Below, one piece after another: positions 22,382 through 34,813 of a stretch of DNA of 64,000 nt. The stretch is from NCBI RefSeq assembly GCF_014252055.1, contig NZ_CP059208.1, forward strand, positions 445,297-509,296. The letters run 5' to 3'. The translations under genes and the position numbers were made by a program. Below the pieces are notes generated by a model. The model saw nothing but the letters and a program-made list of their open reading frames with translations. It was not told the origin of the DNA and ran no database searches. The stretch is from Blattabacterium cuenoti (GTDB taxonomy: Bacteria > Bacteroidota > Bacteroidia > Flavobacteriales > Blattabacteriaceae). Positions within the stretch are counted from its first letter, which is position 1. Each line of letters opens with the position of its first letter.

Positions 22382-23017
22382 TTATAAGAACTTTATATTT
22401 TTTATTCTTCTCTTAAATAATAAAAATAAAATAATACCGATAAAAATAACTATATCAGATACATTAAAAACAGGTTTAAAAAATTGAAAATTTTTTCCTC
22501 CAAAAAATGGAACCCAATTAGGAAAATTAGTATTTATTATAGGAAAATAAAATATGTCTACCACACAACCTTCCATTAAAGAGGCATAACCATTACTAAA
22601 ACTTAGTTTAGATATTCCAGAATAAGGAATCCATTTTCTGTATTCTTTGTTATAAATTGTTCCTGTATTAAACAATAATCCATATAAAGCACTATCTAAA
22701 AAATTTCCTATAGCACCTGATAAAATAAGAATAATTGGAATAATTAAATAATTAGAAGATTTTTTTTTTACATGTTTATAAATAAAAAACAATATAAAAA
22801 AAATTAAAAAAAGACGAGAAATGCTTAATAAAATTTTACCAAGATATCCAGGAGCAAGATTAAATCCATACGCCATTCCTGGATTTTCTACTAAAAAGAT
22901 ACAAAAAAAGGGAAATATGCAAAAACCACTACCCAATTCAAAATGGGTCTTGATATAAATCTTTAAAAATTGATCTATTAATAAAATAGAAAAAATAATT
23001 AAAAAAATCTTTTTCAA
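22382..23017 (-). CDS. lspA: Lipoprotein signal peptidase (signal peptidase II)
   Basis: LspA is a membrane aspartyl protease that cuts the signal peptide before the lipidated cysteine. The two catalytic aspartates lie in GAIGNFLDS and GCVVDIFYFP; VENPGMAYG is the conserved N-terminal loop. About four hydrophobic helices are seen. At 211 residues it is longer than proteobacterial LspA because of an insert between the two aspartate motifs, as is usual in flavobacteria. It overlaps the upstream DksA/TraR-like gene by four bases. Its presence supports true lipoprotein processing, relevant to the lipoprotein at 31326. Confidence 0.95.
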   Translation of the reverse strand: MKKIFLIIFSILLIDQFLKIYIKTHFELGSGFCIFPFFCIFLVENPGMAYGFNLAPGYLGKILLSISRLFLIFFILFFIYKHVKKKSSNYLIIPIILILSGAIGNFLDSALYGLLFNTGTIYNKEYRKWIPYSGISKLSFSNGYASLMEGCVVDIFYFPIINTNFPNWVPFFGGKNFQFFKPVFNVSDIVIFIGIILFLLFKRRIKNIKFL

Positions 23018-29645: not shown

Positions 29646-31109
29646 TTACTTATTCCTATAATAATTTGGAGTTTCTTTTATCATGCTTACACTATGCGGG
29701 TGATTTTCTTTTAAACCTGAATTTGTTATTTTAACAAATTTTGACTTTTTTATTAATCCTGCAATTGTAGAAACTCCACAATATCCCATCCCAGAACGTA
29801 ACCCACCACAAATTTGATATATTACATCTTTCATTTTTCCCTTATAAGGGACTATCGCTTCTATTCCTTCTGAAACATATTTTTTATTAAATTGAAAATA
29901 ACGATCTTTACTTCCTTTTTTCATAGCTGTTAAAGACCCCATTCCTACATAAGTTTTAAATCTTCTTCCATGAAAAATAACTTCTTCTCCTGGAGATTCA
30001 TCTGTTCCAGCAAATAAACTTCCAATCATTACAGAACATGCTCCAGACGCAATTGCTTTTACTACATCACCTGAATATCTAATTCCTCCATCAGAAATAA
30101 TGTTAACATTTCTTTTTTTAGCATATTCATATACATTATTTATTGCAGTTACTTGAGGCATTCCTACTCCAGCTATAACTCTAGTAGTGCAGATAGAACC
30201 AGAACCTATTCCTACTTTTAAAACATTAGCCCCTACTTTTATAAGATCTTTTGCTCCTTTTTCTGTTACTACATTTCCTGCAATTAATGGTATTTCTGGA
30301 AAAGAATGTTTAATTGATTTTATTATATTTAATATTTTTAATGAATGTCCGTGAGCGGAATCTATAGCTATAATATCTACCCCTACTTTAATTAAAGAAC
30401 CTACTCTTTCCAAAGTATTTTTTTCTATACCTACAGCTGCTCCTACTCGTAGTCTACCTCTAGAGTCCTTACATGCATTAGGATGTTTTATTAAATTATC
30501 AATATCTCTAATTGTAATTAACCCTATTAATATATTGTTATCATCTACTATGGGTAATTTTTCTATTCTTTCTCTTAAAAGAATGTTTTTTGCCTCTTCT
30601 AAAGTTATATTTTTGGAAGAAGTAATTAATTTTTTTTTTGTCATTACATTTTCTACTAGAGATTCTAAATCCGTACGATATTTAATATCTCTTCTAGTAA
30701 TTATTCCTACTAATACATGATCCTTATCAATTACAGGTAATCCTGATATTTTATACCTTTTCATAAGGTATTGTGCATGTTTTAACGTGGAATTTCTAGA
30801 AAGAGTAATGGGGTCATCTATCATTCCACTTTCACTTCTTTTCACTTTATAAACTTCCTCTGATTGATTCTTGATATCCATATTTTTATGAATAATGCCT
30901 ATTCCTCCTTCTCTAGCAATGGAAATTGCTAATGAAGATTCAGTTACTGTATCCATAGCTGCACTTAATATGGGAATATTAAGTATAATATCAGATGTTA
31001 AAGAAGTCTTGAGAGAAACCTCTGATGGAAGTACTTCTGAATAGGATGGAACTAATAAAACATCATCAAAAGTTAAAGCTTCTTTTAAAATCTTTTTATC
31101 TAAAGACAT
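29646..31109 (-). CDS. guaB: Inosine-5'-monophosphate dehydrogenase
   Basis: GuaB oxidises IMP to XMP with NAD+, the committed step to GTP. The barrel begins with [15 protein letters not shown]; two CBS domains follow (roughly 95-200). The catalytic loop GSGSICTTR carries the active-site cysteine, and [15 protein letters not shown] and GMGSLTAM bind the substrate phosphate. Length 487 is normal. It stands alone, convergent with tRNA-Leu and divergent from the lipoprotein gene across 216 bases. Confidence 0.98.
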
Positions 31110-31179: not shown

Positions 31180-31187
31180 TAATGGTC

Positions 31188-31208
31188 TTATTTTCAAAAT
31201 GAAAATAA
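31188..31208. promoter_or_regulatory. 9-bp inverted repeat (TTATTTTCA-AAA-TGAAAATAA), operator-like
   Basis: Two perfect 9-base arms flank AAA, lying 9 bases after the TATATTTG box and between the two promoter candidates of the lipoprotein gene. The arms are too AT-rich for a strong RNA hairpin and no T-tract follows, so a protein-binding operator is at least as likely as a terminator. Chance occurrence is possible in such AT-rich DNA. Confidence 0.35.
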
Positions 31209-31282
31209 AAATATAGGAATATTTTTTTTTACCAAAAAAAAAATACAATTGATGATATATTTTTTCATTCCGAATTTTTATA

Positions 31283-31290
31283 TAAATTTG
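31283..31290 (+). promoter_or_regulatory. Proximal -7 element of the lipoprotein gene (TAAATTTG)
   Basis: TAAATTTG matches TAnnTTTG and is followed by C as in many flavobacterial promoters; it lies 36 bases before the ATG. No TTTG occurs 19-21 bases upstream (T-rich stretch only), so the -33 half is weak. Confidence 0.45.
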
Positions 31291-31325: not shown

Positions 31326-31649
31326 ATGATGAAAAAACTAAGAATTACTGTTACTACAATACTATTAGCAATATTTTTGTTTACTGTAAGTTGTAACAAT
31401 AAAAATAAAAACGAAAATCCTTCCAATACAACAACAGAAGAAGAGAAATCAGCAAATAATAACAGCAGTAGCAGTAGTAGTAATAATGAAAATCAAGCAG
31501 ATTCTAATTCTGCAACCAATCCTACTACAAATTCTTCTAATGAAGAATCATCTACAAAAAGTAATGAAGAATCTTCTTCCACTTCTTCTACAAATGAAAA
31601 AGAAAAAGTAAAAGATAAAATTGAAGATAATGAAAAAAGTAATAAATAA
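31326..31649 (+). CDS. Low-complexity Ser/Asn/Glu-rich lipoprotein of unknown function
   Basis: Function not recognised. The 107-residue product starts MMKKLRITVTT, has a hydrophobic core (ILLAIFLFTV) and a lipobox-like TVSC with the cysteine at residue 23; -3 is Thr, not the usual Leu, so lipidation is likely but not certain. By hand count the 85-residue mature part holds 21 Ser, 20 Asn, 13 Glu, 10 Lys and 9 Thr, and almost no hydrophobic residues: it should be disordered and hydrophilic. An acidic/basic tail (NEKEKVKDKIEDNEKSNK) ends it. Serines 6 in a row are encoded by AGC/AGT repeats. It has its own upstream control region and a terminator-like hairpin after it. LspA is encoded at 22382. 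Confidence 0.8.
   Translation: MMKKLRITVTTILLAIFLFTVSCNNKNKNENPSNTTTEEEKSANNNSSSSSSNNENQADSNSATNPTTNSSNEESSTKSNEESSSTSSTNEKEKVKDKIEDNEKSNK
31464..31481 (+). repeat. Trinucleotide (AGY)6 run inside the lipoprotein gene
   Basis: Six successive AGC/AGT codons encode hexaserine and are followed by AAT AAT. In-frame triplet runs can change length by slippage without breaking the frame. Confidence 0.7.
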
Positions 31650-31745
31650 AAATAAATAGAAATAGATAAAATATAAAATAAATTATGATATAATGAAGTC
31701 GAAGTCATAGAAGAATAAAATCATAGAAATTAAGTAAAGAAGAAG

Positions 31746-31769
31746 AAAGAGAGTTTTTTCGCTCTCTTT
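31746..31769. terminator. Bidirectional terminator-like hairpin between the lipoprotein gene and rplS
   Basis: AAAGAGAG and CTCTCTTT form a perfect 8-bp stem with an 8-base loop, followed on the plus strand by a T-rich stretch and on the minus strand, via its complement, by weaker T's. It lies directly beyond the rplS stop and about 100 bases after the lipoprotein stop, so it can serve both convergent genes. Confidence 0.6.
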
Positions 31770-32114
31770 TCAACTTTTTATCTTAGCTTTTTTTCCTTTT
31801 AGTTTTCTAAAATAATAGATTTTTGATCTTCTTACTTTTCCTTTTTTGTTTATATCTATTTTTTTTAGATTGGGTTGACTGAAAATAAATACACGTTCAA
31901 CACCTATTCCTCCACTTGTTTTTCTTATAGTAAAAGTTTTAGTTGCTCCTATTCCTTGTTTTTTAATTACAACACCTTTGAAAGACTGTATTCTTTTTTT
32001 CTCTCCTTCTTTAATTTCAAAAAAAACAGTTATAGTGTCGCCAGAATTAAATAATGGAAAATCATTTTTATGATGATATTTATCTTCTATATATTTCACT
32101 ATATTTTGTAACAT
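31770..32114 (-). CDS. rplS: 50S ribosomal protein L19 (bL19)
   Basis: L19 lies at the 30S-50S interface. FNSGDTITVFFEIKEGEKKR, QSFKGVVIKKQG, TFTIRKTSGGIGVERVF and the C-terminal RRSKIYYFRKLKGKKAK are family signatures. Length 114 is normal. It is six bases after glmM and probably co-transcribed with it. Confidence 0.97.
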   Translation of the reverse strand: MLQNIVKYIEDKYHHKNDFPLFNSGDTITVFFEIKEGEKKRIQSFKGVVIKKQGIGATKTFTIRKTSGGIGVERVFIFSQPNLKKIDINKKGKVRRSKIYYFRKLKGKKAKIKS

Positions 32115-33562: not shown

Positions 33563-34813
33563 TTATTCAAAATCTATAACCTTTTTTGGATAAATTTTGT
33601 TTATGAAAAATAAAGAAAGAAAAATAACTGTTAAAAAACAGATAAAAATAATAGATAAGTTTATCATAATAATATCAATGTAATTTAAGTTTACAGGAAT
33701 AAAATCAATAAAATATTGCATTTTATTTAATGATAAAATATGAAATTTTTTTTGTATCAATAATAAACTAATACCAATTATATTTCCTATAATTAATGGA
33801 GGAATAAATATATGCATGATGTAAAATAAAAATATATAGTATATATTTTTATTTCTAGCTCCCATCATTTTTAAAATTCCTATAGTTTTCATTCTTTCTA
33901 AAATAAGAATTAGAATAAATGTTATCATGTTGATAATTAAAGAAATGAAAACAATAAAAACAATTATAATAATATTAGTATTAAATATATTAATCCATGT
34001 AATAAAATCATTATAATATTCATTATTAGCACTTTTTAACAAAAAATTTTTGTATTTTTTTTGATTAAAAATATTTTTTTTGTAAAAATTATACAAAAAT
34101 ATTTCGAATCCTTCTACAAATTCTTTTTTCCATCCATAAATAGATTGGATATGTTTTATATTTCCAATAATATATAAATTATCAAATTCTGGAATTCCAG
34201 TTTCATACAATCCATAAATTTTAAAGACTTTAGATATAATAATAGGAATAGATGATCTTTTTTTAAATATCATAAAATCTATTTTTAGATTTGATCCAAT
34301 ATTTAACCCTAATAAAAAAGATATTTTTCTAGATAAAAGAATGTTATTATTTGATAAAAAACTATTTTTATTATTTTTTTTTTCTAAGCTAACTAAAAAA
34401 TAGTGAAAAAAAATAGGATTGTAATTTTCATATATTCCTTTAAATATAAATTTTTCTAATATTTTATTATTTATTCCGATAAGTACATTATTTTCTGCGA
34501 ATGGATAAATATTCTTAACCTTAATATTATCAATTGATAAAAAATTTTTTAAAGATGAATTTTTGATTTTGGAAGAATCAATAGGAATTTTATTTTCTGA
34601 ATCTTTATTTACTACAGTAATTTGACCTTTAATATTTAATAATTTTTCTTTTGTAAGATTTTTAAATCCAAATCCTATTGAAAAAGTAAAAATAGTTATT
34701 AATAGACTAATAAATATTACTATTTGCGTTATGATAACTACTGTTTGAAAAGTTTTATTTTTACTAGAACTTTTCCAGATTGTTTTCTTAGAAAAAAACC
34801 ATTCAAAATCCAA
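33563..34813 (-). CDS. FtsX-like ABC transporter permease (LolC/LolE type)
   Basis: Predicted inner-membrane permease of the MacB/FtsX superfamily, likely part of a lipoprotein-releasing (Lol) transporter. Topology fits: one N-terminal helix (about 24-48), a large periplasmic domain of roughly 220 residues, then three C-terminal helices. The first of these is followed by ERMKTIGILKMMGARNKNI, the hallmark cytoplasmic loop of LolC/E permeases that contacts the ATPase. Length 416 is typical. The sequence is heavily drifted. No LolD ATPase lies beside it, so partners must be elsewhere. It is 12 bases after dnaB. Family assignment is firm; the transported substrate is inference. Confidence 0.82.
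   Translation of the reverse strand: MDFEWFFSKKTIWKSSSKNKTFQTVVIITQIVIFISLLITIFTFSIGFGFKNLTKEKLLNIKGQITVVNKDSENKIPIDSSKIKNSSLKNFLSIDNIKVKNIYPFAENNVLIGINNKILEKFIFKGIYENYNPIFFHYFLVSLEKKNNKNSFLSNNNILLSRKISFLLGLNIGSNLKIDFMIFKKRSSIPIIISKVFKIYGLYETGIPEFDNLYIIGNIKHIQSIYGWKKEFVEGFEIFLYNFYKKNIFNQKKYKNFLLKSANNEYYNDFITWINIFNTNIIIIVFIVFISLIINMITFILILILERMKTIGILKMMGARNKNIYYIFLFYIMHIFIPPLIIGNIIGISLLLIQKKFHILSLNKMQYFIDFIPVNLNYIDIIMINLSIIFICFLTVIFLSLFFINKIYPKKVIDFE

Follow-up and report, generated by a model that had tools for sequence, protein, structure and literature searches.

A small lipoprotein of Blattabacterium cuenoti with a predicted disordered tail accompanies mraY and is a probable functional component of the cell envelope

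Braun's lipoprotein (Lpp) is a small protein with a C-terminal Lys. It has a strongly conserved expression signal, and its presence is tied to peptidoglycan synthesis. Proteins with the OmpA C-terminal peptidoglycan-binding domain, and Pal, are another point of comparison for links between membrane and wall. Surface lipoproteins of Bacteroidota have a Cys lipid anchor, a charged N-terminal mature region, and an export signal at positions +2 to +6, which is C-X-K-(D/E)2-X or a version with Ser plus acidic residues (PMC5080379). Short charged lipoproteins are also present in free-living Flavobacteriales (for example, G382, G085, and G252). The genome of Blattabacterium cuenoti, a single contig of 622,023 bases, possesses a gene that can be compared with each of these. 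The window, which is the whole stretch of DNA that was analysed, covers 64,000 bases of it (445297-509296). The features that are needed here are given in window coordinates.

22382..22999, - strand: lspA, lipoprotein signal peptidase, the maturation enzyme (PF01252 match at G000:C1:467714-468295)
29646..31109, - strand: guaB (IMP dehydrogenase), divergent neighbour, assigned by sequence and position
31255..31290, + strand: near-invariant promoter block (column identity across the genus) with a -7 box, TAAATTTG, at 31283-31290; TAnnTTTG in 49 of 49 genomes
31326..31649, + strand: lipoprotein coding sequence, 107 codons and amino acids, ATG to TAA with no internal stop; intact orthologues in 49 of 49 genomes
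31326..31391, + strand: signal peptide, residues 1-22 (MMKKLRITVTTILLAIFLFTVS); genus consensus, dN/dS 0.138, predicted helix
31392..31394, + strand: lipobox Cys23, predicted lipidation site; Cys in 49 of 49 genomes, and likewise in the Geopemphigus symbiont
31392..31646, + strand: mature tail of 85 residues, ending in Lys, predicted to be disordered (composition, pLDDT 41-53); dN/dS 0.341
31434..31448, + strand: TEEEK, residues 37-41, the best-conserved tail motif; alignment columns almost invariant across the genus
31745..31770, no strand: bidirectional rho-independent terminator hairpin, common to the lipoprotein gene and the convergent rplS; 0 expected in shuffles
31770..32114, - strand: rplS (ribosomal protein L19), convergent neighbour and synteny anchor
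33563..34813, - strand: LolC/E-like lipoprotein-releasing permease of the FtsX family (TIGR02212 E 1e-28, below cut-off; PF02687 3.8e-13)

The gene encodes a small bacterial lipoprotein, which is a known kind of object, and it is the sole clear lipoprotein among the window's 49 main ORFs. The Sec signal ends in the lipobox TVS/C, with the Cys at residue 23 of the 107-aa pre-lipoprotein. The initial annotation had described a signal peptide, a TVSC lipobox, and an 85-residue tail, and its coordinates proved exact. It had counted 48 percent Ser plus Asn and 86 percent Ser, Asn, Glu, Lys, and Thr in the tail; a recount gave 48.2% and 85.9%. The clean frame, promoter region, and terminator that it reported are those listed above. 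With 20 orthologues supplied, AlphaFold2 predicted a single helix, residues 5-26, which corresponds to the signal peptide. No fold was predicted past this helix, and the pLDDT of the tail (about 41-53) suggests disorder. Across Blattabacterium the tail is hydrophilic and acidic, with a net charge of -4 to -13 and a mean of 1.4 hydrophobic residues other than Cys.

No Pfam or NCBIfam model reached its cut-off for the 107-aa protein and no matching sequence was found in the PDB, in partial agreement with the initial annotation, which had called it the only protein of the window with no recognisable fold or family. Pfam matches to New_glue are of low complexity, and at 0.001 the protein encoded in the window has no such match. 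The lipoprotein also has no match to PF00691 (OmpA/Pal) at E 1. Weak matches to Piezo, LppA, BamJ, and other families were dismissed as low-complexity or signal-peptide noise. A non-coding RNA at the locus was rejected, as the window yields tRNAs only. As far as the libraries searched show, the lipoprotein family is undescribed and is confined to insect symbionts of one family.

The interval from guaB to rplS was read in each Blattabacterium genome with rplS, found in all 49, as the anchor. An intact ORF of 87-110 aa is present between the two genes in every genome and there are no broken copies. An independent profile search recovered the same 49 genomes. In no sister strain was the gene missing or its frame broken, the outcome that had been set beforehand as refuting the initial annotation. 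The rplS match at G045:C1:169525-169854 contains an in-frame TGA, which is possibly a frameshift or a sequencing error. The consensus of the 49 proteins is MMKKLRITVTTILLAIFLFT(x)SCNNKNKNE...TEEEKTANNNENQTDS...SEKEKVTTEENEKNNK. In addition to TEEEK, conserved ENQ blocks are present in the tail, and the last residue is Lys in 46 of the 49 proteins, though the residues before it vary. A comparison of dN/dS across strains had been proposed along with that of length. Pooled over 24 close pairs, dN/dS was 0.138 for the signal peptide, 0.341 for the tail, 0.144 for guaB, and 0.185 for rplS. The signal peptide is constrained as strongly as guaB, and the tail is under purifying selection.

The promoter of the lipoprotein gene is among the best conserved seen in the region. 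Its -7 box is of the Bacteroidetes type, and the first base of the box lies 43 nt before the ATG. TAnnTTTG was found no more than 130 nt upstream in all 49 genomes, versus a mean of 5.2 in shuffles. Over positions 31250-31289, 10-nt blocks have mean column identities of 92-100%, while identity is 54-73% over most of the intergenic half nearer guaB. The promoter block is the best-conserved part of this region and exceeds the codon positions as well; the half with guaB's promoter differs. Selection acts on the protein and on its expression. A second conserved stretch is present at 31180-31199 of the window, in the middle of the intergenic region (TAATGGTCTT, 93%; ATTTTCAAAA, 84%). Pattern matches that could indicate a regulon sharing the promoter equalled the reversed control in 7 genomes, a weak negative because the pattern was shifted by one base relative to the -7 box.

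Relatives were found beyond the genus. The Bacteroidetes endosymbiont of the aphid Geopemphigus has been named Candidatus Skilesia alterna (PMC9116674). In the 1.3-Mb genome of a Geopemphigus symbiont (G314), rplS is immediately followed on its 3' side by a convergent orthologue (profile E 8e-8). As in the window, pgm and a LolC/E-like gene are present upstream of rplS. The sequence of this orthologue, MMKNLKITLATLMLATVLSASSCKGPEKTEEAAIENQEETSSNE...KAEEKK, includes the lipobox Cys. Its upstream sequence, TTCGGAATTTTTATAATAGCTTTGCAAAG, scored 18 against the Blattabacterium promoter element, which was reached by 0 of 2000 shuffles and was the best of all windows within the 14-kb locus. A lipobox protein is encoded at the corresponding place in two g2 genomes, of 344,793 and 337,336 bases. 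These proteins are homologous by position only; their tails are very different (Q-rich and KPETKK-rich) and their promoters have no match to the Blattabacterium element. Tail composition is not kept between hosts, being Q- and K-rich in g2 and A/E-rich in G314. The C-terminal Lys is present in G314 and G064 and not in G289. At locus L101 of G289 (+ strand, from 1125), a tail of KPETKK/KPDTKK repeats is encoded by an intact frame in a genome of about 337 kb where mraY is broken.

No lipoprotein was found 3' of rplS in Uzinura, Walczuchella, or the sampled g3, g4, g8, and g9 genomes. The non-carriers opened at the rplS locus were g3, g4, g6, g7, one g9 genome, and three g8 genomes, and the others were covered by the profile search. 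Matches in free-living Flavobacteriales (for example, G382, G085, and G252) are weak, with E values of 1e-5 to 1e-2, and none adjoins rplS, guaB, pgm, or lolC. These proteins resemble the Blattabacterium lipoprotein in length, lipobox, and disordered charged tail. As weak matches without synteny, they were not accepted as homologues. When 78 rplS loci from free-living and other genomes were read with a loose pattern, no 3' lipoprotein was found beyond the Geopemphigus symbiont and one Blattabacterium.

Peptidoglycan synthesis is annotated in Blattabacterium and is absent from Walczuchella, Uzinura, and Sulcia (PMC3971599). LPS synthesis is incomplete in Blattabacterium (PMC3287516). The Bostrichicola genome of Lyctus cavicollis reportedly has no peptidoglycan genes left (PMC10284843). 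The gene mraY (PF00953) was found in 52 of the 68 family genomes, which are G314, the two g2 genomes, in one of which stops break the copy, and all 49 Blattabacterium. The lipoprotein is present in exactly these 52, and both genes are absent from the same 16. All 49 Blattabacterium genomes have lspA (PF01252). In G032 the lspA match is interrupted by a stop. Two g4 genomes keep lspA and have neither mraY nor the lipoprotein, so the lipoprotein tracks the wall more closely than it tracks lipoprotein maturation. In the RpoB tree, G314 is sister to Uzinura and Walczuchella, both of which lost mraY and the lipoprotein. The trait needs three changes on this tree, at least two of them forced by well-supported branches, so the sample in events is small, and the 16 genomes without mraY and the lipoprotein have lost much else besides.

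The lipoprotein outlasts other envelope genes. An OmpA domain (PF00691) is present in 38 of the 49 Blattabacterium genomes and missing in 11, including this one, through 3-4 independent losses. LolC/E was undetected in 13 of the 49 and is broken in 2, and the g2 genomes are without it. The lipoprotein is intact in every Blattabacterium in which OmpA is missing or LolC/E is missing or broken; its retention is independent of OmpA and LolC. The absences and breaks of the LolC/E-like permease (33563-34813, - strand, in the window) amount to repeated loss of the lipoprotein export pathway, and lolD pseudogenes have been reported from two strains (PMC6039017). Tail length varies with OmpA. The mean tail is 79.6 residues in genomes without OmpA and 71.2 in the others. 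A phylogenetic regression puts the difference at about 9 residues (p ~1e-5). It holds when genome size is included (~1e-4) and when LolC loss and root distance are added as covariates (5e-4). Among 39,056 random four-clade sets, just 4 did as well as the OmpA-less clades. An independent-pairs test had 3-4 pairs only and no power. Of the two spacers beside the gene, the one towards rplS is likewise longer in OmpA-less genomes (p 0.009). The association of a longer tail with OmpA loss is suggestive, as it was noticed post hoc and involves 3-4 losses.

The lipoprotein is kept intact in all 49 Blattabacterium genomes and in the aphid symbiont, has a near-unchanging promoter, and is found only in carriers of the wall gene. 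Therefore, it probably functions as a component of the cell envelope, rather than being a decaying leftover. The reading that is tentatively preferred is an abundant, wall-associated, lipid-anchored spacer that faces the periplasm and is Lpp-like in function, not in family. Sec, Lgt, and LspA would make the expressed, membrane-anchored lipoprotein. The mature part, about 65-88 residues long, would extend into the periplasm as a flexible hydrophilic chain, and a dense brush of such lipid-anchored chains could contact the thin peptidoglycan layer. In the symbionts, its role may approximate that of Braun's lipoprotein and OmpA elsewhere. Selection would then act on expression level, on the lipid anchor with the residues that follow it, and on a tail kept disordered and limited in length, not on a fold. 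An envelope spacer was among the functions raised in the initial annotation and is the best supported of them, as presence tracks mraY and the tail is longer where OmpA was lost. A periplasmic partner of host molecules was another candidate role raised there.

Like Lpp, the lipoprotein is small, usually ends in Lys (46 of 49), and has a conserved promoter and a presence that matches mraY. Unlike Lpp, which is a trimeric coiled coil, it has a tail without heptads or helix that composition and AlphaFold2 indicate to be disordered. It also differs in that LolC is dispensable and in having no sequence relation to Lpp. A canonical covalent link of the Lpp type through YkuD is unsupported: heptads are missing and the L,D-transpeptidase model PF03734 matched in 0 of 49 genomes, although this model stayed silent in the Bacteroides control too, so that a Bacteroidota-type enzyme may be present; YkuD_2 (PF13645) lay outside the search. 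With OmpA C-terminal peptidoglycan-binding proteins and Pal, the lipoprotein would share a role in linking membrane and wall. It does not have the OmpA fold, and a separate OmpA-domain protein is present in 38 of the 49 genomes. A bolder proposal, which is rather doubtful, is that it serves this symbiont family as a fold-less substitute for envelope-wall linkers; its tail would lengthen on OmpA loss, and the protein would outlive Lol and vanish only with the wall.

The main rival to the spacer is a lipoprotein of the inner membrane with a regulatory or auxiliary role in peptidoglycan synthesis or turnover, such as that of a partner of the remaining penicillin-binding proteins. The signal peptide, first mature residues, and TEEEK would be its binding parts, and short motifs in the tail are better conserved than its remainder. 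Co-distribution with mraY fits this rival equally well. Export to the outer membrane may be unnecessary, since the lipoprotein persists in the 13 genomes that lost LolC/E, in the 2 with a broken copy, and in g2, where LolC/E is absent. Loss of this permease points to the inner membrane, and an outer-membrane location in LolC-less genomes would need another route. LolA (PF03548) reached its cut-off in 0 of the 68 family genomes, a count that may reflect a model that misses divergent Bacteroidota forms. However, Flavobacterium johnsoniae is viable with no LolA or LolB at all, so lipoprotein sorting in Bacteroidota is possible without them and Lol loss is no proof of inner-membrane residence (PMC11885536). 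No partner was identified for such a regulator and no folded domain is present, and this reading appears unlikely.

Display at the surface, facing the host bacteriocyte as an immune mask, adhesin, or spacer, is improbable. The acidic hydrophilic tail in Blattabacterium and the intracellular lifestyle would suit it, and the predicted Cys lipid anchor and charged N-terminal mature region are shared with Bacteroidota surface lipoproteins. Unlike them, the lipoprotein is without the export signal at +2 to +6 in the 49 genomes (PMC5080379). These residues are NNKNK or NNKSK in 44 of the 49, and acidic residues begin at +7 to +13. Because this signal is missing, surface exposure, which the initial annotation had raised as a tether, is disfavoured. 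Tail composition also differs between hosts, and the tail is constrained and not diversifying.

It is hardly probable either that selection targets the membrane peptide at the N-terminus and its expression, for instance through a part that the signal peptide or a highly expressed lipoprotein plays in membrane lipid balance, with the tail mainly as tolerated hydrophilic filler. The dN/dS of the signal peptide (0.138) is at the level of an enzyme, the promoter is near-invariant, and the residues that make up the tail shift between genera along with genome base composition, all of which would be consistent with filler. However, the tail dN/dS of 0.34, the conserved tail blocks (TEEEK, ENQ), and a final Lys in 46 of 49 are unexpected for it. 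A neutral or decaying remnant, as the initial annotation had also suggested in a fast-evolving form, is very improbable: the low-complexity tail with indels (87-110 aa) and the KPETKK repeats in G289 would fit it, but it is contradicted within Blattabacterium by 49 of 49 intact copies, purifying selection (dN/dS 0.14 for the signal, 0.34 for the tail), a near-invariant promoter, and a conserved terminator.

Orphan genes that survive extreme genome reduction flag functions that standard annotation misses. This lipoprotein may mark the minimum that is needed for holding a thin-walled symbiont envelope once OmpA and LolC/E are gone. Lineages that are separately without the wall, OmpA, or Lol make the family a clean comparative test case.
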